From a virus, in IMG/VR virus record IMGVR_UViG_3300017963_000048, positions 1-62,290 of that record: 62,290 bases of DNA, one strand, 5' to 3'. The position numbers and the translations under genes are program-made. The notes below the pieces were generated by a model that ran no database searches, had not been told where the DNA came from, and saw only the letters and a program-made list of their open reading frames with translations. Shown here piece by piece: positions 8,445 through 47,166 of the stretch (position 1 is the stretch's first letter; the number at the start of each line of letters is the position of its first letter).

Positions 8445-11174
8445 CTAAACACCTGGGGGAATACTAGATAAATATAACTCGTTTCCATCCATTACAGTTT
8501 CAAACAGCAAACGATGATCACTAAAATCTTCGCCACTTGCGCCGGTGCTCATATAAGGCCAATTGCCTATGAAAAGTACCGTCACCATGTGCCGGTCAGT
8601 AGCTGGCAGCCAGAAACGTCTTTGACAGAAATAATCCATCTGTTCAACCACTACATCGCTGTTGTTGATTATGCGTGCCAGCAAATTCCTGGTCAAAGTT
8701 TTCACGCTGCCTATTTCGATGGTGTCAGTGAAGTCAGCACCAGTGCCTTTGTGCCTTTGTGTCAAATAAGCATCCAGATAGACTTCATCAGCTGGCATGA
8801 AAATGATGTCCACCAGTTTGATGGTGCCCGGCGTGTTGCACGTGCAACTGACTGTGACCCATGTCGGTGGCTGTGCTTCAGTACCCACCAGCAAGCCAGC
8901 ATCCAGCACTGGCAGCTGCATGGTGCCCAAATTATAGGTGAGCACACCATAAGGCGTGCCTGACTGCAAAATGTTGTCAAAGCCTATTACTTTGTTTTGA
9001 CTGGCATAAGAGCCATAGATGTCAAAGCCACCCGCAGCCACATCAGTTTTGACACGCACAAACACATTAAATCTGCCATTGTATTGACTGGCCACACTAC
9101 TAGATATATTGATGGCAGCTAAGCTGGCCTGCTGCGTGGCGATCATCGTTTTTTGCACCACTCTGCCGGTGGGTGCATCAGCATCAGCGCCAAAAGCACC
9201 ACCTAGCAAACCCACCGACAAATCAGCACCACCCACAAAAACATCACTGAAGTTTGCCGTAGCTTGAAAATCTGGCGCCTCACCAATGTTTTTGACACCT
9301 AAGATCATTCGGTAAGTTTTTGACGAAAAATAAGCAGTCAATTTTTCATACTTTGATTCAAAGCGCAGCTGCGTTTCTACACCAATATCACCACCGAGAT
9401 CATCAATCAGAAACCAGTTTTTGTTTTGGGCTTGCACATGGTCAATGGCCATCTTAGGCACTGACGGCATGGCCGCGACTGTGAGTGTCCAGCGCACCCA
9501 ATAAGCATTCACACCATTGATGGTGGTTTTGGTCAGTGTGTTGGCTTGATTCAGATAGAACAGATTCCTGCCCAACTCTGTGAATCCATTAGTATTGTCA
9601 GTCATTGTGGGTGCGATGTTTGTCCAGGCACCAGTATAAGCCTCATAATTCATGCCCCAACCTGGTGGGGCTGCTGTGGCCAAGTTAAACAAAAGCACGT
9701 CAATGGGCACATCTGTGTGGCCGATGTATAGTATGTCACCAGCACCACTGGGAAAGGTGAAAAGATCAATGCCGGTATTTTCCACTTGGTTGGTGCTGAA
9801 AGCAGCTGCTGAAGCATCGTATCTGAAAATGTGCGTCAAGTTTGGCAAATTGCCATTGCGCAAAGCAATTGCAGCACAGTCACGCACATCGCTGGGCAAT
9901 CCAATGGCTTCATTACAAATGGCCAAAATTTCGACATTGGTCATCGTCAAATCCCACCCCACCAGCAAGTCAGTTAAATTGGTGCCTTCACCAACTTCAT
10001 GCTGCCAAGCAGCCACCACAGCACCAGCAAATGGCCCATCTGGTGTGAAGCAGAGCGCCTCATAATCAATTGGTTCGGGGTCACTATAGAACCAATTGGT
10101 CTGCCACAAACGCTGCCATCCCATCTTTAAGCCTGCCGTTTCATCATAGCTGGCATAATTACCCACCACGAAATTGGCAGTGCTGCCCACTGGTGTGTAG
10201 CCTGAATTTTGATACCCATACAAGGGCACCAGATAACCATTCACAAACAGCCTACAAGCAGTCCAGCCAGAATTGGTGCTCAGTGCCATGTGGAACCAGT
10301 CACCCTTGATAGATGACGGCAGCTCCCAAAAGCTGATCTTTTCACCAGTGTTGCCGATAGCTGGACCGTCCTGATAAGCCCACAATGACACTAAAATTTG
10401 ACCACGAGAATCTTCCTCGATGATATATTTCCAACCTTCATAAACAGTGCCACTGTCCCACATGCCACAGATAGGTGCAGTCACGCTGCCAACAGCAGGT
10501 GTGGCCCAATCAATCTTATACCAACCATCCCAAGCAAACTGATCTTCATACTTGTCAAGCGTGGCATGATAGGCACGCTCTGCACGTGCATCAGTTTGAT
10601 CAAACACAAGTGCGTCACGCCTTTCATCACGGTCAACAGCTTCATGATAAAACTCTAAGCACTCATCTAATCCAGGGGGCTGCTTGCGCCATCCTGAGCG
10701 CTCGATCTGCACCAGGTATTCTTCAGATACCAAACCAAGTGGTGAATCTTGTTTGATGGTGTCACCATCAGCAGGTGTTTCAAAGTTATGAATGAGCGCA
10801 TATCTGGTGACACTTTCACCCAACTTTTTTCGAGCCATAAACACTGGCCTGATCTTACTTGGTGCCAGCCAAAATGAACGTGCACGCAGCAGCACGCGGC
10901 GCATTTCTCTGATCTGTGCAGCCAGGGAATCATCGTCTTTGGCACTGGCATTGATCTCAAATTCTTCGAGCACTGTTGACCAGCGAAAATCTACTAAGTG
11001 CCGATCATCAGCCAGCGGGGAATCTTGCCACACTCCACCATCTTTCATGGTTTGAATGGCACGCGGCCACGCCTCGAGAGAAAAATTTCCTAAGATGTCA
11101 AACGTGTTCTCACGCGTGCCATCTGAAATATAAAATACTTGCAAGCCATCTATGATAGGCACATAATCAGTCAT
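8445..11174 (-). CDS. Large distal tail protein with LamG-like insert (909 aa)
   Basis: Encoded immediately downstream of the tape measure gene, where distal tail (Dit) proteins lie. The N-terminal 170 residues look Dit-like, with a ring-type beta domain followed by a LamG/ConA-like domain at about 180-380 (WFHMALSTNSG, LFVNGYLVPLYGY, FVVGNYASY). The remainder is beta-rich and could hold further carbohydrate-binding modules. The length suggests an evolved Dit that takes part in host recognition. The ribosome-binding site is weak; the spacing of three bases to the tape measure stop suggests coupling. Confidence 0.6.
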   Translation of the reverse strand: MTDYVPIIDGLQVFYISDGTRENTFDILGNFSLEAWPRAIQTMKDGGVWQDSPLADDRHLVDFRWSTVLEEFEINASAKDDDSLAAQIREMRRVLLRARSFWLAPSKIRPVFMARKKLGESVTRYALIHNFETPADGDTIKQDSPLGLVSEEYLVQIERSGWRKQPPGLDECLEFYHEAVDRDERRDALVFDQTDARAERAYHATLDKYEDQFAWDGWYKIDWATPAVGSVTAPICGMWDSGTVYEGWKYIIEEDSRGQILVSLWAYQDGPAIGNTGEKISFWELPSSIKGDWFHMALSTNSGWTACRLFVNGYLVPLYGYQNSGYTPVGSTANFVVGNYASYDETAGLKMGWQRLWQTNWFYSDPEPIDYEALCFTPDGPFAGAVVAAWQHEVGEGTNLTDLLVGWDLTMTNVEILAICNEAIGLPSDVRDCAAIALRNGNLPNLTHIFRYDASAAAFSTNQVENTGIDLFTFPSGAGDILYIGHTDVPIDVLLFNLATAAPPGWGMNYEAYTGAWTNIAPTMTDNTNGFTELGRNLFYLNQANTLTKTTINGVNAYWVRWTLTVAAMPSVPKMAIDHVQAQNKNWFLIDDLGGDIGVETQLRFESKYEKLTAYFSSKTYRMILGVKNIGEAPDFQATANFSDVFVGGADLSVGLLGGAFGADADAPTGRVVQKTMIATQQASLAAINISSSVASQYNGRFNVFVRVKTDVAAGGFDIYGSYASQNKVIGFDNILQSGTPYGVLTYNLGTMQLPVLDAGLLVGTEAQPPTWVTVSCTCNTPGTIKLVDIIFMPADEVYLDAYLTQRHKGTGADFTDTIEIGSVKTLTRNLLARIINNSDVVVEQMDYFCQRRFWLPATDRHMVTVLFIGNWPYMSTGASGEDFSDHRLLFETVMDGNELYLSSIPPGV

Positions 11175-33958: not shown

Positions 33959-34606
33959 TCAAGCTTCTAAGATACTTTCATCTTTCACCAAGTAGATGGC
34001 TGGCAAGCTGATCACGGTGACAATGGCTTTGAAGATGATCTGGCCACTGGTCAATTGAAGTGCAGCCCATACTGGCATGCTGTCACCACCAAAAAATGGT
34101 GGTAAGAGCACAAAGGCCAGCAGCGCAAATGTGAGCGAGTCAATGGGCAAAGATACTGCATTTGACATCAATACCCTTGACCATTGAGGCATGCGCGGCA
34201 ATTTCATTTTGACCACGTGAAAAATCTCAGTGTCTATGCTTTCACTTAAAATTTCAGCTGTGATGCTGCCAATGGTGATGGCTGGCACAATGGCAAAGAT
34301 GGCACCCCACGATTCAGCCAAACCATAAAAGGCTGGTGCTGGCAGCTGGCCAATGGCCCACAGATAGGCTGCTTGCACCACATTCAGGACACCAGCAGTT
34401 AAAATGGCTGCGCGTGCCCAATCACGTCCCAAGCGCTTATGGATGACATCGCGCAGCGTGAAAGTGAAGGCAAAAATGAACGTGCCTCCGGGAATCACAA
34501 TGCCCCACAACTCCACCAGCTTGGTGGCACCAATGTCAGCAATGGCTTGGCAAATGACATAAGCACCAATTAAATACACAATCGTTCTAATCGTTTTTCG
34601 ATTCAT
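33959..34606 (-). CDS. yhhQ: YhhQ/VUT-family queuosine precursor transporter (215 aa)
   Basis: Six hydrophobic segments and the family-typical GGTFIFAFTFTLRDVIHKRLG stretch near residue 40, SITAEILSESIDT near 117 and LPIDSLTF near 155. YhhQ imports preQ0/preQ1 across the inner membrane. In a phage with QueC and DpdA, it would feed extra 7-deazaguanine precursor to DNA modification. The start follows TTAAAGGAGTTTT. It is the last gene of the 39-34 kb operon. Confidence 0.88.
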   Translation of the reverse strand: MNRKTIRTIVYLIGAYVICQAIADIGATKLVELWGIVIPGGTFIFAFTFTLRDVIHKRLGRDWARAAILTAGVLNVVQAAYLWAIGQLPAPAFYGLAESWGAIFAIVPAITIGSITAEILSESIDTEIFHVVKMKLPRMPQWSRVLMSNAVSLPIDSLTFALLAFVLLPPFFGGDSMPVWAALQLTSGQIIFKAIVTVISLPAIYLVKDESILEA

Positions 34607-34615
34607 AAAACTCCT

Positions 34616-34987
34616 TTAAAATATAATCTCAATCTGGCCGTGGTTGGCAGACTTGCCCGTTAAACTAAAAACTCCTATGCGTGCCTCATCAATCACACTA
34701 CACACATAGTTGAAAATCGTCAAAGCTAATTCTTCAAGCGTAGTGGGTTCATCTGTAATCATGTGCAAAGCTTGGTCAAACTCTGCCCAATCTGGCACCA
34801 ATGACCAATCAGCATCTTTTGACTCTTTGGCAGCCGGGTGCATGCACACAAATGACACCAACAGCAGCGCAGAAATGGCCGGATCATGCTGGTTTGGATC
34901 AGTCAGCTTGCAAGTGGCTTGCAGCTCTGTTTGGTATTCAATCATGGGTGCAGTGTTGTGGGGAATTTCTAACTTAATATATTTCAT
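34616..34987 (-). CDS. Possible T-fold protein (FolB/QueD-like?) (123 aa)
   Basis: The second half (VPDWAEFDQAL...TTLEELALTIFNYV...ARIGVFSLTGKSANHG) has the helix-strand pattern of T-fold enzymes such as dihydroneopterin aldolase and 6-carboxytetrahydropterin synthase. The zinc-binding HxH of QueD is not visible. It overlaps the glycosyltransferase gene by ATGA and sits in the deazaguanine cluster, where a pterin-type enzyme would make sense. Treat as a hypothesis; a structure prediction would decide. Confidence 0.4.
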   Translation of the reverse strand: MKYIKLEIPHNTAPMIEYQTELQATCKLTDPNQHDPAISALLLVSFVCMHPAAKESKDADWSLVPDWAEFDQALHMITDEPTTLEELALTIFNYVCSVIDEARIGVFSLTGKSANHGQIEIIF

Positions 34988-36030
34988 CTATGTCTGCTCC
35001 TGCGTACACTTTTGAAAGTGAGCATCTGGTTAAAAACCAAGTCCACACCAGCCAGCTCTGTGGCCAGCGCATGGGCATTGGGTGCGTGCAGTTGCACAAA
35101 GTCATGCCATTCATCATCTGTGAATGTCAAACCACTTAAAATGGCATCTAGCATTTGATTGTAATCTGCAAAGCGGTATCGTTTAGGCAAGCCAAACACA
35201 TCATAGATTGGCTGATCAGCCAGCAGTGGTGTCAAGCCAAAAAAAAGCGCATTGACAACACTATATGGAAACACTTCTTGGCGTGCATCAGCCCACAAAT
35301 AACCCCCACCACTGCACAGCTGCTTTAAGCGTGACAGAGGCATGAAGCCAGTGAAGGTGATATTTGGATAAAGGCCATTCAGCGCTTGACTCCCTGTTGC
35401 CAAACATTCAATGTTTTCTCTTGCAGCCAGCTTTGCAAACTCAATAAAACGATCTTTGCCTTTGTCATAATCCCACCGGGCAGCATAGATCACGCGCTTA
35501 GCTGCACGCCAATTGACTGGCTTCACGCTGAAGTCAATGGGGTAGGGTTTTACCACTGGCCTGGCATAATCGGGCAGCAAGCTGGCTGCATGTTGACTGC
35601 CCACTATAATCTTGTCATAGCAATGGCATAGATACTCGTCAAAATTAGCAGCATGGGGAATCTGCTCAGCAACGTCACCCACCATGTGTGTGCTGCCATG
35701 ATATAAGGCCACCAGCTGTTTGTTGCTCAGGTCTAATCCAGCTGTGAAAATCTTATACATCAGCAAGGGCAGGAAGGGTGCCCAATAATCTGTGCATAAA
35801 ATCACGTCTGCCCATTCTAGCATTTGACAACTTGGCACTGAAGCAGACCAGTTTTGCACTTGCGTGCGGAAGTTTTCAGGCTTGTAGAATGTTTGATCAT
35901 AACCAAAGCGCTGCACATAAACATTTTTCGCAGCTGCCAGCACTTCCATGACTGGCTGCATGACCAATTCTTCACTGTGGCCAATTTTGCCTAACATTAA
36001 AATATTGACATCATTTTGCTTGGTTGGCAT
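34984..36030 (-). CDS. GT-B glycosyltransferase-like protein (348 aa)
   Basis: Pattern of a family GT4-type enzyme: N-terminal strand (NILMLGKIGHSEE), LVALYHGSTHM, DKIIVGSQHAASL. The C-terminal nucleotide-binding half has RVIYAARWDYDKGKDRFIEFAKL, NITFTGFMP and WADARQEVFPYSVVNAL, including an expected E-x7-E-like end. The ATG at 36030 has a perfect CGGAGGTGATTGAAT ribosome-binding site inside the end of gat-queC. Translationally coupled to gat-queC and DpdA, it may add a sugar to the modified base, or glycosylate another target. Confidence 0.72.
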   Translation of the reverse strand: MPTKQNDVNILMLGKIGHSEELVMQPVMEVLAAAKNVYVQRFGYDQTFYKPENFRTQVQNWSASVPSCQMLEWADVILCTDYWAPFLPLLMYKIFTAGLDLSNKQLVALYHGSTHMVGDVAEQIPHAANFDEYLCHCYDKIIVGSQHAASLLPDYARPVVKPYPIDFSVKPVNWRAAKRVIYAARWDYDKGKDRFIEFAKLAARENIECLATGSQALNGLYPNITFTGFMPLSRLKQLCSGGGYLWADARQEVFPYSVVNALFFGLTPLLADQPIYDVFGLPKRYRFADYNQMLDAILSGLTFTDDEWHDFVQLHAPNAHALATELAGVDLVFNQMLTFKSVRRSRHR

Positions 36031-37375
36031 ATTCAATCACCTCCGAAAACTCATTCATCGCAAATGCAGTTTGACGCATAAAACAAGGCCCACATTCACC
36101 ACAGTGCAGTGGCCCATCTTCATAGCATGACCACGTTTTGTGCATAGGCGCATTCAGTTGCACACCCAATCGCACGATTTCATGCTTCATCAAATTGCCC
36201 ACAGGCATCTCAACATCTATTCTGGTGTTGACGTTCACACTGTAGGGCACCAAGTCAGCAAACAGCTTGGTGAAAATCATTTCATTGTCGGGGTACGCGC
36301 CGGCCTCTTCCAAATTATTGCCCAGCGCAATGACATCATAATGATTAGATTCCGCATAAGCCAAAGCCATTGCATAGAAAATCAGATTCCTGGCCGGTAC
36401 CCATTCATGCGCAAATTCAGCACCAGCAGCACCATGCTTCACAATGCTGGCTGCTGGATTGATCAAGCTGGTTTCCATGCCAGCAAAGACGGCCCGGGTA
36501 TCCACAAAGTCACAAGAGCAGCCCATTTCAAGTGCACAAGCCACCACTGCCTCACGCTCTCTGGCACTGGCTTTGCAGTCATAACCAAAGTGGAGCAAGC
36601 ACACATCATGCCCCGCGTGCACATATTGCTTGGCCGTCACCACTGAATCCAAGCCACCACTGCAAATGACCACCACACGTTTGACACCCGTTTTCTCTGG
36701 CAGCAGTGGAGTTTGCACGATTGACAAATCTGGCTGCACGTCAATGTAGGTATAAGCTGGCAGCTTTTGAATGTTGTCAGCTTCAGATTCCCGCAAGTAT
36801 TCTGGCAAGCTGGCGAATAATAAGAAACCAGCACCACGCAGCATATAGAGTGGTTTATAGTTGCAGGCCAAACTTAAAATACTAAGTTCTGGTGTTGACT
36901 TCATGATGGCCAATGCAAAGCTGCCCACAATTTCATTAGTGAGTGACAGATAAGGGTCATGCTGCAAAAACCAATAAGGCAACACCGCACTGTCAATATC
37001 TGATGTAGGATCTCTGTCAAGCTGCGCCCATAATTGCTTGTCATTGGCAATGATGCCATTATGACTGACGGCCACATGCCCCACAGCACTTTTTGCTGTA
37101 AAGGGCTGCACGTCATTCAGTGTTTTGGTTTTCACAAATTCGGTGGTGGGCTCAGCCCGCGTGTTGGCTATGATGATGTCAGGCACGCCAAGGTAATCAG
37201 CTGCCAAGCCACATGCAGCCAGGTCACTGCCAATGTGCTTGATCTCTTGGCCATCGCTGGTGATCAGTCCCACGCTGTCACGTCCGCGATCATTGGCACG
37301 CTGCAAAGTGCGCAAAAATCTTGCATAAACTTCAATATCTTTGTGATTAGTCTGTAAAGCCACTATACTGCACAT
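36011..37375 (-). CDS. queC: Gat-QueC: class II amidotransferase fused to QueC (454 aa)
   Basis: N-terminal class II glutamine amidotransferase: the nucleophile Cys2 follows the initiator Met (MCSIVAL), then RGRDSVG, IIANTRAEPT and SHNGII. From about 230 comes QueC: PP-loop CSGGLDSVVTAK, LHFGYDCKAS and the zinc site HCGECGPC near 425. QueC makes preQ0 from 7-carboxy-7-deazaguanine. Gat-QueC fusions are known from archaea, where they replace ArcS, and from phages whose DNA carries 2'-deoxyarchaeosine (as in Enterobacteria phage 9g). The start follows TCAGGAGTTGTTAGC. All key motifs are intact. Confidence 0.92.
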   Translation of the reverse strand: MCSIVALQTNHKDIEVYARFLRTLQRANDRGRDSVGLITSDGQEIKHIGSDLAACGLAADYLGVPDIIIANTRAEPTTEFVKTKTLNDVQPFTAKSAVGHVAVSHNGIIANDKQLWAQLDRDPTSDIDSAVLPYWFLQHDPYLSLTNEIVGSFALAIMKSTPELSILSLACNYKPLYMLRGAGFLLFASLPEYLRESEADNIQKLPAYTYIDVQPDLSIVQTPLLPEKTGVKRVVVICSGGLDSVVTAKQYVHAGHDVCLLHFGYDCKASAREREAVVACALEMGCSCDFVDTRAVFAGMETSLINPAASIVKHGAAGAEFAHEWVPARNLIFYAMALAYAESNHYDVIALGNNLEEAGAYPDNEMIFTKLFADLVPYSVNVNTRIDVEMPVGNLMKHEIVRLGVQLNAPMHKTWSCYEDGPLHCGECGPCFMRQTAFAMNEFSEVIEYANQAK

Positions 37376-38298
37376 GCTAACAACTCCTGATAACGTTTCT
37401 CCACATTCAAAAAACCTTCTACAGCTGAAGCCACATAAGGAAATGAAGCGACAACCATGTACATTTTAGGACCAACCCCACGCGGACCAATCATTTCACC
37501 ATAATTTTTTTGCATCCATTTGATCATCAGCCAATAGGCCATGCTTGAAAGATAGGCATAATAATAATGTGCATCTTTGGTTTTACTGTGCTCAAAAAAT
37601 TCAGTAAGGTCAACGCCGAGGGGTTCGAGCAAGTGCCACAGCTGCAAAAACTTGTTTCTGTCAAAGTCACGATTCCTGCGCTGCATGGTGAATTGATTCA
37701 TGGTGCCAAACTTATAATCAAAAACCTGAATGCGCCCGAATACCGGCGCACTCATCCACGTGCTGCTGTCAAAACTATACCAAGGGAAGCGCTTCAAAAT
37801 CTCCCAAGTAGTCACGCCGAATGCGTGATATTTGCAGCCCGTTTCTTCAGCAATTCTGAAAGCATCCACAAAGCGTGACTGCGCACCTTTCGACATCAAA
37901 CTGGTGCCTGCAATGCCACCAATCGCAATGTAGTCAGTTTGGGCAGCATATTTTTTTAACCATTTTATATCTTCACCAGCATGGTAGACTGGCAGCGTAT
38001 GCACCCCCATATCTTTTAAAATCAGCCAATTGTCAAATGACTTGGCTGCACTTGTAACCACATCTAAATTCGATATCGCAGTGAAATAACCATCCCACTT
38101 GGTCAACCAAATTGCATAATCTTTGGGCGAAATGTGAAACCCCTGATTCCCGGCTGTGAAAGCACCACTGTCAGCAAACAAGTCAAAGTCAACATGATCA
38201 CGGAATGGGTCAAAAATTTCACTGAGATTTTTGTTCTTAGCATAATGATATGAAATTAGGATGCTAACTTTAGGCTTAACTGGTGGTGTGCTAGTCAT
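37363..38298 (-). CDS. dpdA: DpdA-like DNA tRNA-guanine transglycosylase homologue (311 aa)
   Basis: TGT-fold enzyme that swaps guanine in DNA for a 7-deazaguanine. Phage DpdA hallmarks are visible: LISYHYAK near 15, DLFADSGAF at 39-47 (catalytic Asp), a second Asp in ISNLDVV, VYHAGED, YIAIGGIAG and YHAFGVTTWEILKRFPWYSFDSSTW. The zinc site of tRNA TGTs is absent, as in phage DpdA. Overlaps gat-queC by 13 bases. With Gat-QueC and YhhQ it forms a compact DNA-modification module. Confidence 0.88.
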   Translation of the reverse strand: MTSTPPVKPKVSILISYHYAKNKNLSEIFDPFRDHVDFDLFADSGAFTAGNQGFHISPKDYAIWLTKWDGYFTAISNLDVVTSAAKSFDNWLILKDMGVHTLPVYHAGEDIKWLKKYAAQTDYIAIGGIAGTSLMSKGAQSRFVDAFRIAEETGCKYHAFGVTTWEILKRFPWYSFDSSTWMSAPVFGRIQVFDYKFGTMNQFTMQRRNRDFDRNKFLQLWHLLEPLGVDLTEFFEHSKTKDAHYYYAYLSSMAYWLMIKWMQKNYGEMIGPRGVGPKMYMVVASFPYVASAVEGFLNVEKRYQELLACAV

Positions 38299-40156: not shown

Positions 40157-41557
40157 TTACACACCCACCATGTTGACTGCTGGCTCTAGTTGGGCAGCAC
40201 GTGGCTTGCGCCTGCTGACTGGCATGGTCAACTGGTCACTGTCAATCTCACCTGACAAATGCTTGCGCGCACGTTTGCGCTGTGCGTTGCTTGGCAGCAA
40301 TTCAGCAGTGGCTGCTTTACCGCTGCGTGTGTATTGACCCAACTCCATCAAAGCTGACTTGCTGAGCACTTCAACTGCTTCTAAGTTGCGGGTGATTTTT
40401 GCCACTGCTTCTTTGTCACGTGTTTGACTGCGAATGTCCACGAGTGAAGCTTGCATACTCTGCACCATCAAATCTATATCTGGCATCTGGCCACCAGCAC
40501 CCCGCACTTGCTCAGCAAGTTTGATCATGTTTTCAAGCTGCAAAACGCTGCGAGGATGAAAGTATTGATTTTTCTGGGTAGTTTTCAGCATGCTGCTGGT
40601 GGCTTCATTGAAAATACTGTGCAGCCTGGTCACGTAATTGACCATAAACTCGTCAACGATAGCACTTTGCTTTTCACGGGCTTCATTGAAAACTCGCTCG
40701 TGCATTTTACGCTTGGCGAAAACTTCAGCTTCAGCCACTTCACGTGCAGCCCAAATTTGATCTTGCTTTTCACGCTCTGCTAAGTTTTGCATGCGCTTTG
40801 CATGCGCTGCACGTTCATACTCTGTGTCTAACTCCAAGCGTGCTGCTGCTTGCTCAGCTTGACTGGCAGCAATGGCTGCTTTCTCACCTTCAATCAATGA
40901 TGGTAGAGGCACATAAGTCAATTCCCAAGTCACACTGAAACTGTCTCTGACTTCTTCACGTGGTGGCAGGGCATCAATTTTGGCTTGGGCATAATTGGCT
41001 GCAAATTCAGCCTCAGTCATATCTGGCTGCACTTTCATGGTGCGAAACGCTTGTGTGCCAGCAGCCAGTGACTCGTCATACAAGTCATTTTGAAACTGCT
41101 CCCAACCAGCTTCGCTGCACATGTCATCTGCCCACGTGTAAACTTGGCTCTGAATGCTGTCAAGTTCTTCAATTGCATCAGCAAAACTTTGTGCTGTCAA
41201 AAAATCCCCATAATGTGTGTGGATACTGCCATATTTTTTGGGCACATTGCGCACACGTGTTTCTGCTGACTGATAACGCTTAGACCAAGCGCTTGGCATG
41301 TTTAAGCGATAGCCAAGCTTGATCTGCTTGGCAGCTTCACGCTCTAGTGCTTTGTCAGTGCTGGTGATGCCTAAATCAGCCAGAGTCAATTTTTGAGTGG
41401 CTCGCCAGCGTGACACGTGCACCGTGAGCAATACGCCTTCATCCATAAACTTCAACCATTGGGGATCTAACGTTTGAATGTCATCAGCTGCCACACCAAG
41501 CTGCGTGGCCAGTGCTAAGCGTTGCTCTCTAGTTACTTCTTGAATTTTCTCAATCAT
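40157..41557 (-). CDS. DUF3150-like protein (466 aa)
   Basis: Residues 45-180 fit the DUF3150 pattern: VHVSRWRATQKLTLADLG, then LGYRLNMPSAWSKRYQSAETRVRNVPKKYG and HTHYGDFLTAQSF. The rest is long coiled coil (250-330) and a basic Arg/Lys-rich tail. DUF3150 proteins are commonly encoded next to AAA ATPases in phages and plasmids; their biochemical function is not known. Overlaps the gene before it by four bases (ATGA). The start is supported by GAGATAAAATC. Confidence 0.65.
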   Translation of the reverse strand: MIEKIQEVTREQRLALATQLGVAADDIQTLDPQWLKFMDEGVLLTVHVSRWRATQKLTLADLGITSTDKALEREAAKQIKLGYRLNMPSAWSKRYQSAETRVRNVPKKYGSIHTHYGDFLTAQSFADAIEELDSIQSQVYTWADDMCSEAGWEQFQNDLYDESLAAGTQAFRTMKVQPDMTEAEFAANYAQAKIDALPPREEVRDSFSVTWELTYVPLPSLIEGEKAAIAASQAEQAAARLELDTEYERAAHAKRMQNLAEREKQDQIWAAREVAEAEVFAKRKMHERVFNEAREKQSAIVDEFMVNYVTRLHSIFNEATSSMLKTTQKNQYFHPRSVLQLENMIKLAEQVRGAGGQMPDIDLMVQSMQASLVDIRSQTRDKEAVAKITRNLEAVEVLSKSALMELGQYTRSGKAATAELLPSNAQRKRARKHLSGEIDSDQLTMPVSRRKPRAAQLEPAVNMVGV

Positions 41558-41880
41558 GATTTTATCTCCGACAAACCAGCTGTGGCAGCTTCACGCAAAA
41601 AGCGTGCTGCATTGTCACGTGACCAGACTGACTCCTCTTGCATTTTAATGATCTCAATTTGGTATGCGTTTGCACGCTCAGCTCTAATCATGAAATCAAG
41701 TATAACCGGGTCAGTGGCTTCATGATCACCAGCACATGGTGTGGTGACAATTTCACCAATGCAAAGCTGATAGCCTGCATCTAGCAGCTGCAAAATCAGC
41801 GCTTCAATGGCAGCCTGATCAGCTTCACCAACGATGAATGGTATGGCATTTTCGTTTTGATCAATTGCGTAAAATTTCAT
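41554..41880 (-). CDS. Hypothetical protein (108 aa)
   Basis: No family recognised. Soluble, acidic alpha/beta protein. Start set by TGGAGGCCAAACAAA, the same leader type as in the early genes. Shares the transcript with the DUF3150-like gene. Confidence 0.65.
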   Translation of the reverse strand: MKFYAIDQNENAIPFIVGEADQAAIEALILQLLDAGYQLCIGEIVTTPCAGDHEATDPVILDFMIRAERANAYQIEIIKMQEESVWSRDNAARFLREAATAGLSEIKS

Positions 41881-41927: not shown

Positions 41928-42269
41928 TTATTTAGTGGCAGCTTCAGCCACAGCGAGTGCTTCAGCTTCAGTGAGTGGTGCCCAATAACCAATGGGATCA
42001 ACGTCAGGAAAGCGCACAGTCAAACGTGCTTGAATGGCTGCAAAGCGTGTGCTGCTTTTCAAGTTGGCCATGATCAAATCATGCAGTGGCTGCTGTGGTG
42101 GCAATTCACCAGCCCACATGTCAGCTGACAGTGCATCAGGATCATCACGATACACCAATGGCATGCAGTGCAAAAACTGCTCCCACTTTTGGCAAAAGCG
42201 CTCGGCGTGCTGGTGTGCATCACTAAGCTGTTTTTCAGTTGGTTGGTTGGTGCTTTCAATGATTAGCAT
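41928..42269 (-). CDS. Hypothetical protein (113 aa)
   Basis: No family recognised; helical, mildly acidic. First gene of the unit driven by the promoter at 42344-42373, with the ACTGGAGGTCAAAAAA leader typical of this genome. Confidence 0.65.
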   Translation of the reverse strand: MLIIESTNQPTEKQLSDAHQHAERFCQKWEQFLHCMPLVYRDDPDALSADMWAGELPPQQPLHDLIMANLKSSTRFAAIQARLTVRFPDVDPIGYWAPLTEAEALAVAEAATK

Positions 42270-42343
42270 TTTTTTGACCTCCAGTCAAATGTGTGCGCAG
42301 CAGTGTGTCAGTGCTGCGTGTGTGAGTGCTTGAACGCGATGCC

Positions 42344-42373
42344 ATTATAATGCAAACTTTATAACACTGTCAA
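42344..42373 (-). promoter_or_regulatory. Promoter for the 42.3-39.6 kb operon
   Basis: Minus strand TTGACA, 18-bp spacer, TATAAT, with an operator-like TATAAAGTTTGCATTATA in spacer and -10, similar to the palindromes of the early promoters. Confidence 0.85.
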
Positions 42374-42409
42374 GCCAGCTAATGTGCCAATTTAAACGCT
42401 TGGCAAGAC

Positions 42410-42450
42410 AAAAAAAAGCTGCACTGACTACGGAACAAAGTCAGTGCAGC
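42410..42450 (-). terminator. Terminator of the Ycf35/radical SAM operon
   Basis: Twelve-bp perfect stem (GCTGCACTGACT and complement) followed by seven T on the minus strand. Confidence 0.9.
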
Positions 42451-42486
42451 AACACGCTGTGGGATACGAGTCACAGCAGCAGTGTT

Positions 42487-43101
42487 TTATGTGATCAGCT
42501 TCAGCAGTTCATCTGCTCCTTCAGGGCCAACACCAGTGATGCGAATGACACCATCACCACTGAAACCTACCTCCCACTCTGGCACGCTTTCAAATTCATG
42601 CAATTGATGTTTGCGCGTGACCATGATGATCTCTTTATTATGACTTCCAATGTAACCAGCAGCAGCACGCTGCGTGACATCGTACCGGCCAGCAATGACC
42701 ACATCCACATGCTGCATGATATAGGCCACATGCTGGTTGGTATTAATCATGGATTCAAGTTGCAAGCTGTTGAAGCCAGTCAGCACAATGATTGACAGGT
42801 CAGGATGATAATTGCGCAAAGCTTCAACCAGTTCGGCCACAGCTTCAGCTTGCTGCAATGGTTCGCCACCACTGATGGTGATGCCATCCAAGCCAGCACT
42901 GCGCTGTGCTGGTGACTGCAAATTCAGCATGGCCAGTAGTTCGCCAGTGCTCAGCACATCACCACCAGCTTGGCTGTGTGTTGGTTTATTGAAGCAAAAC
43001 GCACAGCCAAGCGTGCAGCCTTGATACCAAACTACCATGCGCTTCCCGGGTCCATTGGCCACGCTGCGTGGCATGATGTCATGAATATTGTGGGTCACCA
43101 T
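42487..43101 (-). CDS. Radical SAM / single 4Fe-4S cluster protein, NrdG-like (204 aa)
   Basis: CTLGCAFC gives the CX3CX2C cluster site at C29, C33 and C36. ISGGEPL (SAM-binding GGE) is near residue 77. VVIAGRYDVTQR and GSHNKEIIMVTRKH match the small activating-enzyme branch (NrdG, and the stand-alone proteins encoded beside DUF1257). It could activate a glycyl-radical enzyme, but no such partner is encoded here. It overlaps the DUF1257-DUF2997 gene, so the two probably act together. The start follows TTGGAGCAAACCAC. Confidence 0.8.
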   Translation of the reverse strand: MVTHNIHDIMPRSVANGPGKRMVVWYQGCTLGCAFCFNKPTHSQAGGDVLSTGELLAMLNLQSPAQRSAGLDGITISGGEPLQQAEAVAELVEALRNYHPDLSIIVLTGFNSLQLESMINTNQHVAYIMQHVDVVIAGRYDVTQRAAAGYIGSHNKEIIMVTRKHQLHEFESVPEWEVGFSGDGVIRITGVGPEGADELLKLIT

Positions 43102-43727
43102 GTGGTTTGCTCCAAGTCAGCACCAAACTGGTCAACTTGAAAATATTCCGGCTTGGCTTGAAAATCAATTTGACCATCTAACAGCTGGTCAAATGCACTG
43201 GTGATGCTCTGACACTCAGCACCAGTGACACCAGTCACGTGCTCGATGACTTCACCATCTGCATCCACGATAATTTCAACACGTGCCAAGGCTTTGACAT
43301 CAGCACGCTGCATGTCAATCTGATAACCGGCACCCACCATGTCAGCACCAACTTGGTCAAATTGCTGCTGCGCATAAACCATTGCAGCTGCTTGGCCCAC
43401 ATAGCGCTGCGTCACTTCAACCATCAGCTGTTTAGCAGTTTTGTTGGTAGCATAGCAGTCAGCTTGCAATTCATAATACACGCCTTTGTCATCATGCTTG
43501 GCCACAAAACCAAAATTGCGCAATTCAGCTTTGGCTGCTTTGTTGCGCTTTTCAATTTGGTATGCTGCCAAAATGTTGACTGGTGTTTTTTGCCAGGGAG
43601 TGACTGCGGTCAAGCTGTTCTCATCAGTCAAGCTGGCTTCAATGAAATAACCAAGCTCCAAAAGTGCTTGCACCAGCAAATCTTTACTGCGCAATTTTGC
43701 GCCTTTGATCTTTGTAATGTGTGACAT
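43095..43727 (-). CDS. Ycf35 (DUF1257)-DUF2997 fusion protein (210 aa)
   Basis: Residues 1-120 follow DUF1257/Ycf35: MSHITKIKGAKLRSKDLLVQ, LGY, then GFVAKHDDKGVYYELQAD, and a QRYVGQ helix. Residues about 150-186 match DUF2997 (VEIIVDADGEVIEHVTGVTG, AECQSITSAFDQLL, G). The two domains are normally separate neighbouring genes in cyanobacteria, actinobacteria and plastids (Ycf35); fusion here supports physical interaction. Function unknown in all organisms. The start follows GGGAGAGCATAAA. Confidence 0.8.
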   Translation of the reverse strand: MSHITKIKGAKLRSKDLLVQALLELGYFIEASLTDENSLTAVTPWQKTPVNILAAYQIEKRNKAAKAELRNFGFVAKHDDKGVYYELQADCYATNKTAKQLMVEVTQRYVGQAAAMVYAQQQFDQVGADMVGAGYQIDMQRADVKALARVEIIVDADGEVIEHVTGVTGAECQSITSAFDQLLDGQIDFQAKPEYFQVDQFGADLEQTTW

Positions 43728-43728
43728 T

Positions 43729-44121
43729 TTATGCTCTCCCGTTTGCTTGCCAGCTGTATTGGTTGGCTTTGATCACTGTCAAGTGCAAACCAAACGCACG
43801 CACAGTGCCAGCAAACTGACCAGCTGCATTGATGTGTAAATTGCGCACAGTCCTGATGGCTGTGCGTGTGCCATTGCTGCCACTGTTGAACTGATACCCA
43901 ATATCATCACCATTGATGACAATGAATTGATCACCAATGCGATCAGCTTCAGCTTCAACGATTCTATACTTGGCAGCTTCAGCGCTTTTGCTCAGCATGC
44001 CATTGCCCGTGAGCAAGTCAACTGTATAATCCAACTGGCTTTGGGCAGCTTCAGCAGTCAGTTTGGCATTGCCACCAATCAGCTGACCACTTTGCTTTTC
44101 AATCACTTTGAAAACTTTCAT
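43729..44121 (-). CDS. Hypothetical protein (130 aa)
   Basis: No family recognised. Mixed alpha/beta, with GGNAKLTAEAAQSQLDYTV and a positively charged C-terminus. Driven by its own promoter at 44161-44190 with the ACTGGAGGTCAAAAA leader. It is the first gene of the unit that continues into the DUF1257-DUF2997 and radical SAM genes. Confidence 0.65.
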   Translation of the reverse strand: MKVFKVIEKQSGQLIGGNAKLTAEAAQSQLDYTVDLLTGNGMLSKSAEAAKYRIVEAEADRIGDQFIVINGDDIGYQFNSGSNGTRTAIRTVRNLHINAAGQFAGTVRAFGLHLTVIKANQYSWQANGRA

Positions 44122-44160
44122 TTTTTGACCTCCAGTCAAATGTGTGTGAGTGTTGGTAAC

Positions 44161-44190
44161 ATTATAAAGCTAACTTTATAGAATGGTCAA
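44161..44190 (-). promoter_or_regulatory. Internal promoter of the Ycf35 operon
   Basis: Minus strand TTGACC, 18-bp spacer, TATAAT, with the near-palindrome TATAAAGTTAGCTTTATA (44163-44180), the same operator type as the early plus-strand promoters. Confidence 0.87.
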
Positions 44191-44726
44191 GATACAAAAA
44201 ACAAATGGCTGATATTTTCGCCCATCTTCAGTGTGTCAGTGGTTTGAATGCAGGTCAGTGGAAATCTGCTGCGCAGCCAGTCATGCCCAACTGCATTCAA
44301 AGGCAAACTGTGCAGCGCTTGACCAGCTGCATTGTACATTTCCAGCAGATAACCATTTTCGTCACCACGCAAACCATCTATGCTATCCAGCCAACTGACC
44401 AAATTTTGCAGCTGATGGTTTGCAATTTCAGCACCATCACCATTAAGCACCACAGCCAGTGGCAGTGCATCACAGCCATTGACGTGCAGCTTAAGCAGCA
44501 GCATCTGCACAGCCTCAGCTGGCACACTTGGCTGCTGATCAGCTGCACGTGTGTCATGCTTGCAAACCAGTTGCACCACCACTGACCAAAACAAAGTGCG
44601 CCAAACTTGCTGTGGCTTTAATGTGGCACCTTTGTCAATCAACCACGCTGGCCCACTCCAACGGTGCTGCTGGCCATCTGTACAGGATATCCATAATGTT
44701 TTTTTATACTCCCATTTATTGCTCAT
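44187..44726 (-). CDS. Hypothetical protein (179 aa)
   Basis: No family recognised. Trp-rich N-terminus (WEYKKTLWISCTDGQQHRW), helical middle, beta C-terminus. Overlaps the preceding zinc-ribbon gene by 11 bases and lies between the AAA ATPase and the Ycf35 genes, so it is probably part of the same complex. Confidence 0.6.
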   Translation of the reverse strand: MSNKWEYKKTLWISCTDGQQHRWSGPAWLIDKGATLKPQQVWRTLFWSVVVQLVCKHDTRAADQQPSVPAEAVQMLLLKLHVNGCDALPLAVVLNGDGAEIANHQLQNLVSWLDSIDGLRGDENGYLLEMYNAAGQALHSLPLNAVGHDWLRSRFPLTCIQTTDTLKMGENISHLFFVS

Positions 44727-44919
44727 TTTTTTGCTCCTCGATTAGGTAAGTTTGAAAATGCAAGCGCACACGCTCGATATAAAAGCAGTTTGCGCATTTA
44801 ATAGTGACTGCCAAGCAGTCAAATATTCTGTCAAAGCCTAGCAGATCCGGCTGGCCTAGTTCAATGGTGAAACTTTCACCACACATGCTGCACGTCACTT
44901 GCAAATTGCCTGCAATCAT
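44716..44919 (-). CDS. Small zinc-ribbon protein (67 aa)
   Basis: CSMC and CANC pairs, about 31 residues apart, make a single zinc ribbon. The start is set by GAGGAGAAAAATT. It is encoded 75 bases after the AAA ATPase, with the parS-like palindrome at 44956 between them. Likely an adaptor or nucleic-acid-binding component. Confidence 0.65.
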   Translation of the reverse strand: MIAGNLQVTCSMCGESFTIELGQPDLLGFDRIFDCLAVTIKCANCFYIERVRLHFQTYLIEEQKNEQ

Positions 44920-44955
44920 AATTTTTCTCCTCACTTGGTGGTGTTGCTCAGCTGC

Positions 44956-44969
44956 GTTGCTGTAGCAAC
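44956..44969. repeat. parS-like palindrome site 8
   Basis: GTTGCTGTAGCAAC between the AAA ATPase and zinc-ribbon genes. Confidence 0.9.
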
Positions 44970-44993
44970 ACCACCAAAATTGACATCATAATT

Positions 44994-46823
44994 TTATAGC
45001 TTGCGCCCACCAGTTCTGCGTTCCACTTCCAGTGCTTCAGTTATGCGTGCATCCACTTCAGCCCGATTTTCAGCAATTTCAGCACGATACTGTGGTGGCA
45101 AGTAGTCAATATCGTTGACAGCTGCAATGGCCAAATCTTCAAAAAGTTGGTTTTCACGCTGATCTGGCACTACAATTTTAGTGCTGGCCTCTGTCATGAA
45201 TTGAATGAAGTCAGCAGCTGTGCAAGTTTCCAGCGTTTGACCGGCTTTATACATGATGCTCTTGGCTTTGTTAGCGCTGCGCTCTATATAAGCACCAGTC
45301 CACTTGTCGGTGTTATCCAAGTATGCTGCTGTAATGTCATTCGTCACAAAAGTGCGCTGCGCAGCTTTGCTGGCCATCACAGCTGCAATGCTGGCACGTT
45401 CTTCAGCAGCTGGCACTGTGAAAGCTTGCACCACGTCAAAACGTCCTGGCCTTTTCAAAGCACCATCAATATAATCTGGCCGGTTGGTGGCTGCCAGGAA
45501 AATGATGTCACCACGATGACTGGTGTCACCAATAAATTCAAGCCAGCCAGCAAACATGCCTTTTTCTGTTTCATGACTGTCAGCACCACCACGCCCCATT
45601 TGCTGGTCAATTTCATCCAAAAACACCACGCATGGTGCAAAAGCACGCAGCGCTCTGAATAGCTTTTCCTGATTTCGTCCAGTGCTGCCCACATATTTGT
45701 CACGCAGCTTGCGCAAGTTGACTTTGACTGCATTGATCTTGGCTTCAAAGGCAATCGCTTCAGCCATGATTGACTTGCCAGTTCCAGGTGCTCCCGCAAA
45801 CAGCACCCCCATTGGTACGATGCTTTTCATTTCACTGTCACCACTCAGCATTGGTGCAATGACATCAGTTTCAAAGTAATCTTTGATCCACTGCAAGCCA
45901 CCAATGTGATCAAAGCCAAAGCGTGGATACCAGACTTCCAAAACTTCACCATATTCTGACTTAATGATCTCTTGTTTGCGTGCAGCCACGTGTGCAGCAT
46001 CCAACCAGCCCACCTCATCAGCACGCATGAAAATATCTTCAATGTGCAAGCACTGCAAGCCACTGGTGAGCGCTGCAATTTGGTGGTCACTCATTTCAGT
46101 TGAAAATCCAAAGCTGCCAGTATCTTTGTACCAGTCAATGAAGTGCAAGCGCTCATTATAGTCAGGCATGCACATTTCAATCAGTTCAATGCGTGATGAA
46201 GCACTCTGCAAGTTGCTGTGAATATCAGCCAAGTTTTGTGTAATCAAGCACACCACATTGGCACTGGCTGCAATAGTTTTGTCGCGCCCCCAAGTCAGCG
46301 CTGTGGCCAAATTGATGCGATCACCAGCGTTGCCACTGTTGCCAGCTGGAAATAATAAGTCAGCATTTTTCACAATGACAGCTGCTTTTTTGGGTGTTGA
46401 AGCCTCACCAGCTGCAATGGCTTTGGCCAAGTCAGCATCAATGTCAGCTGTGCAGCGCAGCAAACGTGTGATCAACATCAAAGCCACGCCAGGATTATGC
46501 TGCATTGGTCCTTGCTGGCCCATGATCACACCAGCTGCTTGGGCTTGCGGTCTGTTTTGCGTGGCCTCCAAACCAAGCGCCTGCAAAAATGCACGCTTAT
46601 TAGGTTCTTCTGGCTGGCCACTGTCAAACGGAAAGCTGAAGCCTTCAGCAATGTCGTACACGACTGTAATTTCGGCGTGCAGCAAGTTGATTAAAGCAGT
46701 TTCCAGTGGCAAGCCTGGCACTGCAAAATCCTGCGTATTGCCATGCAGCAAAAAAGCATGCGCAATTGAAGCACCATACTTTTCACTTAAGTCACTTGCC
46801 CAATTTGGTTGATAAGTAGTCAT
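44994..46823 (-). CDS. Ycf46-like tandem AAA ATPase (609 aa)
   Basis: The C-terminal AAA module is complete: FDHIGGLQWIKDYF entry, Walker A GAPGTGKS near 345, Walker B VVFLDEID near 397, and second region of homology ATNRPDYIDGALKRPGRFD near 450 with an arginine finger. The N-terminal ~320 residues look like a degenerate AAA domain (KAAVIVKNADLLFP, VVCLITQNLADIHSN, IELIEMCMPDYNER) without a usable P-loop, as in plastid/cyanobacterial Ycf46. Expected to remodel a protein target. The start follows AACTGGAGGCAAAAAA. It is the first gene of the operon with the Ycf35 fusion. Confidence 0.85.
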   Translation of the reverse strand: MTTYQPNWASDLSEKYGASIAHAFLLHGNTQDFAVPGLPLETALINLLHAEITVVYDIAEGFSFPFDSGQPEEPNKRAFLQALGLEATQNRPQAQAAGVIMGQQGPMQHNPGVALMLITRLLRCTADIDADLAKAIAAGEASTPKKAAVIVKNADLLFPAGNSGNAGDRINLATALTWGRDKTIAASANVVCLITQNLADIHSNLQSASSRIELIEMCMPDYNERLHFIDWYKDTGSFGFSTEMSDHQIAALTSGLQCLHIEDIFMRADEVGWLDAAHVAARKQEIIKSEYGEVLEVWYPRFGFDHIGGLQWIKDYFETDVIAPMLSGDSEMKSIVPMGVLFAGAPGTGKSIMAEAIAFEAKINAVKVNLRKLRDKYVGSTGRNQEKLFRALRAFAPCVVFLDEIDQQMGRGGADSHETEKGMFAGWLEFIGDTSHRGDIIFLAATNRPDYIDGALKRPGRFDVVQAFTVPAAEERASIAAVMASKAAQRTFVTNDITAAYLDNTDKWTGAYIERSANKAKSIMYKAGQTLETCTAADFIQFMTEASTKIVVPDQRENQLFEDLAIAAVNDIDYLPPQYRAEIAENRAEVDARITEALEVERRTGGRKL

Positions 46824-46897: not shown

Positions 46898-46927
46898 ATT
46901 ATAAAGTCAAAAGCTGCAATGTGTCAA
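46898..46927 (-). promoter_or_regulatory. Promoter of the AAA ATPase operon
   Basis: Minus strand TTGACA, 18-bp spacer, TATAAT, about 75 bases before the ATG at 46823. It reads away from the candidate origin. Confidence 0.82.
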
Positions 46928-47086
46928 GCTGGTTTTATAGCTTTATGATGTCAAGTTTTTAGGATGTGGATACTAACTAGCTTGCTTAAAGCATAATTTA
47001 ACAGTTAAGTAGTTATGCAACTTAATTGAAACTACTTACTTAACTTAACGTGCAGTCAGTGCACAGCTGCACGCTTCAAACCAGTG

Positions 47087-47166
47087 CAAGCAGTGCACAG
47101 TTGGCTGCTGTCACGTTGCAAGCAGTGCACAGTTGGCTGCTGTCACGTTGCAAGCAGTGCACAGTT
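47087..47166. repeat. 32-bp tandem direct repeats (iteron-like)
   Basis: Units start at 47087 and 47119 (both complete, identical) and 47151 (first 16 bases). Each contains the self-complementary GTGCAC. A further CAGTGCACAG lies at 47057. Confidence 0.9.

Follow-up and report, generated by a model that had tools for sequence, protein, structure and literature searches.

A phage gene module joining an AAA ATPase, a DUF1257-DUF2997 fusion protein, a radical SAM protein and a DUF3150-family protein

The locus

The virus record IMGVR_UViG_3300017963_000048 of IMG/VR, the whole 62,290 bases of which are termed here the window, carries a set of genes, all on the minus strand, that encode an AAA ATPase, a protein in which DUF1257 (Ycf35) is fused to DUF2997, a radical S-adenosylmethionine (SAM) protein, a DUF3150-family protein and several small proteins. 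This set is the phage's version of a widespread module that may serve in AAA-powered, radical-SAM-dependent modification or activation of proteins. Ycf35 and DUF2997 are unexplained despite their conservation in cyanobacteria and, for Ycf35, also in the plastids of red algae; the module offers a route to their function. Its features, in the direction of transcription, are as follows.

46898..46927, minus strand: sigma-70 promoter of the AAA unit, TTGACA-18-TATAAT (12/12), overlapped by an imperfect operator palindrome at 46922-46939
44994..46823, minus strand: AAA ATPase, 609 residues (PF00004, 1.9e-31), placed in a viral/plasmid clade by trees and score calibration
44716..44919, minus strand: 67-residue zinc-ribbon-like protein with two CX2C pairs, read from the sequence (weak Pfam match, E 0.005)
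44187..44726, minus strand: 179-residue protein; family searches gave no match
44161..44190, minus strand: promoter (11/12) before the 130-residue protein's gene, with a perfect operator palindrome at 44163-44180
43729..44121, minus strand: 130-residue protein; family searches gave no convincing match
43095..43727, minus strand: fusion of DUF1257 (residues 1-126) and DUF2997 (residues 149-199), with Cys172 (held-out profiles)
42487..43101, minus strand: radical SAM protein with CX3CX2C at residues 29/33/36, predicted to be of activase type, with a C-terminal beta-beta-alpha tail (PF13353, Fer4_12, 3.8e-25; structural model; tree)
42405..42470, minus strand: intrinsic terminator, a 12-bp stem followed by U8 (RNA fold -22.9 kcal/mol, z -5.0)
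42344..42373, minus strand: promoter (12/12) of the DUF3150 unit, with an operator palindrome at 42346-42363
41928..42269, minus strand: 113-residue protein; family searches assigned no family
41554..41880, minus strand: 108-residue protein; family searches assigned no family
40157..41557, minus strand: 466-residue DUF3150-family protein, the fifth conserved component (held-out profile, E 3.9e-34)

An earlier reading of this DNA (the original prediction) had named six open reading frames (ORFs) here, all of which are present on the minus strand where it placed them; the DUF3150 gene lies outside the range that it covered. Its assignment of the 67-residue product as a zinc ribbon stands as regards the two CX2C pairs, but not as regards zinc-ribbon scores, which are weak.

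Conservation of the arrangement in other viruses and bacteria

The loci compared here (numbered with the prefix L) were chosen by similarity to a query and thus are not an unbiased census. Among them, the strongest argument that the window genes form one module is that the same arrangement occurs in eight other loci. Seven of these (L065, L080, L128, L131, L132, L155 and L157) share with the window the order AAA, DUF1257, DUF2997, radical SAM, DUF3150; the eighth (L048) has the same five families, the relative order of DUF2997 and radical SAM being unclear because its ORFs were read from stop to stop. These loci are both viral and bacterial, and their AAA belongs to a different clade than that of the window. 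This shared arrangement counts against the notion that the AAA goes with DUF3150 alone.

The radical SAM alignment, used to scan bacterial genomes, found 80 loci from many phyla, of which 57 contain DUF2997, 49 DUF1257, 51 a Ycf46-type AAA and 44 all four families. In IMG/VR, DUF1257 and DUF2997 occur together in 24/80 radical SAM loci and in 44/80 Ycf46-type AAA loci. This neighbourhood survey bears out the original prediction in that the genes belong together, with co-occurrence in dozens of viral and bacterial loci; for the same reason the grouping cannot be called special to this one phage. Often an Hsp70-like gene is nearby (38 of the 65 DUF2997-bearing loci; Pfam-identified in the two examples tested), and L036 also encodes GrpE and WD40 proteins.

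Several named systems resemble that of the window in part. The Paenibacillus polymyxa plasmid pPPM1a (L011) has an annotated run AAA-DUF1257-DUF2997-"4Fe-4S single cluster", in which the four families are adjacent, as in the window, and the radical SAM protein is 39% identical to the window's; it differs by having a Ycf46-type AAA and separate genes for DUF1257 and DUF2997, and the stretch read contains no DUF3150. Rhizobium phages RHph_I4 and L338C, Agrobacterium phage JP1 and Aeromonas phage HJ05 (L003, L004, L006 and L007) have AAA, DUF1257 and DUF2997 in one run, but with a Ycf46-type AAA, an extra protein of ~210 residues and no such radical SAM protein in the record. In cyanobacterial cluster g, duf2997-ycf35 lies beside the ferredoxin gene fed7 (PMC4284462); thus DUF2997 adjoins Ycf35 and an iron-sulphur (Fe-S) protein there as in the window, but a ferredoxin replaces the radical SAM protein. 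In the literature searched, DUF1257 or DUF2997 appears in three papers, among them the one on this cyanobacterial cluster. That literature contains no account of the module, nor of Ycf46 with an AAA and a radical SAM protein, although absence there is not proof of novelty.

A separate observation concerns cyanobacterial loci L012 and L093, in which a relative of the window radical SAM protein adjoins an Hsp70-family gene (Hsp70-like in Phormidium L093) and the vicinity yielded neither DUF1257 nor DUF2997.

The DUF1257-DUF2997 fusion protein

Both halves of the fusion proposed for the 43095-43727 product were confirmed. Pfam detects DUF2997 (E 8.7e-11; 42 bits against a cut-off of 24.1), whereas its DUF1257 model (PF06868) has no match to the protein. 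Profiles built from relatives with the window sequence excluded (termed here held-out profiles) detect DUF1257 at residues 1-126 (E 7e-9) and DUF2997 at residues 149-199 (E 1e-9), and neither matches any other ORF of the window when all are scanned. One 64-residue DUF2997-like query was used solely to find leads. Single-sequence searches of IMG/VR yielded no close relatives of the fusion, AAA or radical SAM proteins, and a search of named phages gave none for the fusion. DUF1257-DUF2997 fusions recur in L077, L103 and L238, and such fusions are present in Paenibacillaceae and another phage; the fusion implies the direct contact between the two domains that had been predicted.

A cysteine of DUF2997 is nearly invariant (140 of 142 sequences, and 63/63 in the first set) and corresponds to Cys172 of the fusion. 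The structural model has a predicted local distance difference test (pLDDT) score of 68.5 overall, with a DUF2997 core at 85-87 and the remainder poorly modelled; in it DUF2997 is predicted to form a beta-beta-alpha unit with Cys172 near the start of the helix. As a single chain, the natural fusion is a target for structure and biochemistry, for which this cysteine is the obvious first mutant.

In the viral locus L123, a small ORF (9505-9723) upstream of an AAA of the window's type appears DUF2997-like by eye (a beta-hairpin, then a helix); it lacks the DUF2997 cysteine and is not detected by the DUF2997 profile.

The radical SAM protein

The 42487-43101 product is, as the original prediction had it, a CX3CX2C radical SAM protein. 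Its CX3CX2C and GGE motifs and its modelled fold, which resembles pyruvate formate-lyase activating enzyme, mark it as a probable activase-type enzyme; the model has a pLDDT of 92 and, among solved structures, best matches pyruvate formate-lyase activating enzyme itself (3cb8), the substrate of which is a peptide loop. In the tree it groups with a bacterial clade of DUF2997 systems (97/87), outside the NrdG-like clade (100/99). The radical SAM proteins of viral systems form other clades than the window's, which suggests a separate acquisition by this phage. Prokaryotic viperin was rejected as an identity (30 bits against a cut-off of 180).

The C-terminal tail of this protein (residues 165-204; window 42487-42609) itself resembles DUF2997: profile comparison gives 85% probability, a value that 0 of 200 shuffles reached. 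In the model the tail is a short beta-hairpin within a beta-beta-alpha arrangement; possibly it is a shared docking element, or the likeness may be convergent.

The AAA ATPase and the DUF3150-family protein

The window AAA has its motifs in the conventional order: Walker A (GAPGTGKS), the pore-loop KYVG and Walker B (FLDEID). Against a Ycf46-type profile built from the AAAs of these gene clusters it scores 117 bits, as compared with 111-135 for FtsH, 254-271 for CDC48 and 482-548 for Phormidium Ycf46; against a profile of Paenibacillaceae plasmid AAAs it scores 303. In the tree it falls outside the Ycf46 clade (100/99) and within a separate viral/plasmid clade (98/95), termed here W-type. The FtsH-level score and the tree placement together rule out Ycf46 identity, and the likeness to Ycf46 that had been proposed for the 44994 product is no more than shared AAA membership. 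The original prediction had staked itself on the 43095 product belonging to DUF1257/DUF2997, on co-occurrence of the genes elsewhere and on the 44994 product belonging with Ycf46; the domain placement holds and co-occurrence is strong, but the AAA does not go with Ycf46. In five viral systems that contain DUF1257, DUF2997 and a radical SAM protein (L126, L134, L137, L139 and L143), the AAA is sister to the window's clade (95/88). Models of IetA, a defence AAA, give weak generic matches; the IetAS defence system was rejected because only the AAA core matches IetA and no protease occurs among the neighbouring genes scanned.

The protein encoded at 40157-41557 has a family of 27 loci, the window included, in every one of which an AAA gene is present. 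Several of its relatives match DUF3150 (PF11348), down to 9.6e-25; Pfam alone gives no DUF3150 match for the window protein itself, which a held-out DUF3150 family profile finds. Because it constantly neighbours the AAA, DUF3150 is probably an AAA co-factor. No account of DUF3150 was found in the literature searched.

Some Ycf46-type AAAs are internally permuted, the Walker B block (profile positions 349-387) preceding Walker A (289-347), which is followed by sensor 1 (390-436). These are L048:7910-9403, L080:1976-3772, L125:8527-10182, L128:4612-6234, L131:5562-7127, L132:4966-6576, L155:5817-7367 and L157:4806-6278, and all eight loci also carry a DUF3150 gene. The viral loci L128 and L131, for example, have the five families in the same arrangement as the window but a Ycf46-derived AAA with Walker B moved before Walker A, whereas the window's AAA is conventional and from another clade. 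The literature searched yielded no account of an AAA with Walker B ahead of Walker A.

Transcription units

Near-perfect sigma-70 promoters lie upstream of three genes, those of the AAA, the 130-residue and the 113-residue protein (the last starting at 42269). All three are overlapped by the palindrome TATAAAGN4CTTTATA, which is enriched in the window (14 matches against 1.2 expected). Downstream of the radical SAM gene is a hairpin terminator, and a strong hairpin lies likewise downstream of the AAA gene. From the positions of the promoters, of their common palindrome and of the terminator and hairpin, the locus comprises three co-regulated transcription units in tandem, which extend to 40157, rather than the single operon, lacking the DUF3150 gene, of the original prediction. 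In other respects that prediction was accurate here: the promoters with their phage operator palindrome exist, the terminator is real (z -5.0, U8), and the operator common to the three promoters integrates the unit in phage regulation.

Two further features occur among these elements. A 17-bp sequence, TTTGACTGGAGGTCAAA, is identical at two gene starts (window 42273-42289 and 44124-44140), and at both copies an inverted repeat encloses the Shine-Dalgarno sequence and could control translation. Just upstream of the AAA unit, and adjoining a hairpin terminator, is a perfect 32-bp tandem repeat of 2.6 copies (47085-47166).

Proposed function and its alternatives

The interpretation favoured here, held tentatively and at somewhat below an even chance, is that the locus is the phage member of a widespread module--consisting of AAA, DUF1257, DUF2997 and a radical SAM protein of activase type, to which one subtype adds DUF3150--that modifies or activates proteins in a radical-SAM-dependent and AAA-powered manner. 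DUF1257 and DUF2997 would form an obligate heterodimer (here a single chain) and would offer the radical SAM enzyme either a target polypeptide or the heterodimer itself; the enzyme would generate a 5'-deoxyadenosyl radical and then activate or modify the polypeptide, with Cys172 of DUF2997, at the helix start, as the likely redox, acceptor or modification site; and the AAA ring, with its putative DUF3150 co-factor, would spend ATP on opening or releasing the target. The window member is distinct in its swapped AAA and its fused subunit. That an AAA together with Fe-S chemistry points to a protein-modifying system had been foreseen by the original prediction and is judged right. A broader proposal, speculative but quite possible, is that this constitutes an undescribed class of machine common to bacteria, cyanobacteria or plastids, and phages, and that its ATPase has been re-engineered in one of two ways: by a swap between clades, as in the window, or by placing Walker B before Walker A, as in eight viral and bacterial loci. 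The recurrent link to one radical SAM clade and to an AAA makes the function of Ycf35 and DUF2997 testable in small systems.

Certain observations weigh against a protein-modifying module. The viral relatives of the window AAA in L015-L021 have DUF3150, but their flanks, as far as read, contain no DUF1257, DUF2997 or radical SAM gene, and this radical SAM protein is wholly absent from some phages, RHph_I4 among them; the parts, it follows from such partial sets, can work in subsets. A fold search with the fusion model, which is of low confidence (pLDDT 68.5), matched no known fold significantly, and no polypeptide target of the phage module was identified. The partial sets in L015-L021, where W-type AAAs are paired with DUF3150 with little between them, lend themselves to another explanation, namely that the AAA-DUF3150 pair has one phage function and that the DUF1257-DUF2997-radical SAM cassette, with a promoter and terminator of its own, was inserted separately between the two genes. 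This is unlikely, though not greatly so: the cassette stands between an AAA and DUF3150 in L128, L131, L132, L155, L157, L065, L080 and L048 as well, with another AAA; the AAAs of the five viral systems noted above are sister to the clade of the window's AAA; and the operator is common to all three units. It is very improbable that the radical SAM protein has nothing to do with its neighbours and is instead NrdG, which would activate a phage anaerobic ribonucleotide reductase. The best named models are indeed those of NrdG (phrog_626, 1.8e-30; TIGR02491, 98.4 bits), with which it shares the activase-type fold and CX3CX2C, but the TIGR02491 score is below the cut-off of 126.1, the glycyl-radical partner NrdD was not found in the window (though the record may be a fragment), the protein's clade is that of DUF2997 systems, and its beta-beta-alpha tail is absent from short NrdG-like forms.

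Other explanations retain the module but assign it another purpose. A machine for metal or Fe-S cofactor maturation, in which the AAA chaperone inserts the cofactor (a task that MoxR-type AAAs perform for certain enzymes) with help from the radical SAM protein, would account for the constant Fe-S context--radical SAM in bacteria, ferredoxin fed7 in cyanobacteria--and for the Hsp70 neighbours; it would also accord with losses of plastid ycf35 and ycf46 in red algae that follow habitat, in a study linking them to iron (PMC5940233). It is nonetheless fairly unlikely, as the genes adjoining the module include no conserved metalloenzyme target, and the likeness of the radical SAM protein is to protein activases. 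Alternatively, DUF2997 or DUF1257 could itself be the radical SAM product, that is, a modified effector polypeptide (an immunity effector or one like the ribosomally synthesized and post-translationally modified peptides) whose release the AAA and chaperones control. Chaperone-gated systems with a radical SAM protein and a peptide effector have been described as a theme (PMC7159879), and DUF2997 is a small partner with a near-invariant cysteine, often near the radical SAM gene; yet both proteins are conserved rather than variable and persist in many phages without a radical SAM gene nearby, which renders this improbable. The anti-defence or host-takeover role that the original prediction suggested is more doubtful still: regulation of the module with other phage genes and the weak generic matches of the AAA to IetA speak for it, but the genes of the module are ordinary ones in bacterial chromosomes, and the IetA matches are confined to the shared AAA core.

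A neighbouring gene cassette

As to co-occurrence of the module with 7-deazaguanine DNA modification, a DpdA-like gene was found in only 1 of the 13 records checked. In the window itself, positions 33959-38298 likely hold a 7-deazaguanine DNA-modification cassette, comprising a Vut_1/YhhQ-type transporter, a GATase-QueC fusion and a DpdA-like tRNA-guanine transglycosylase.

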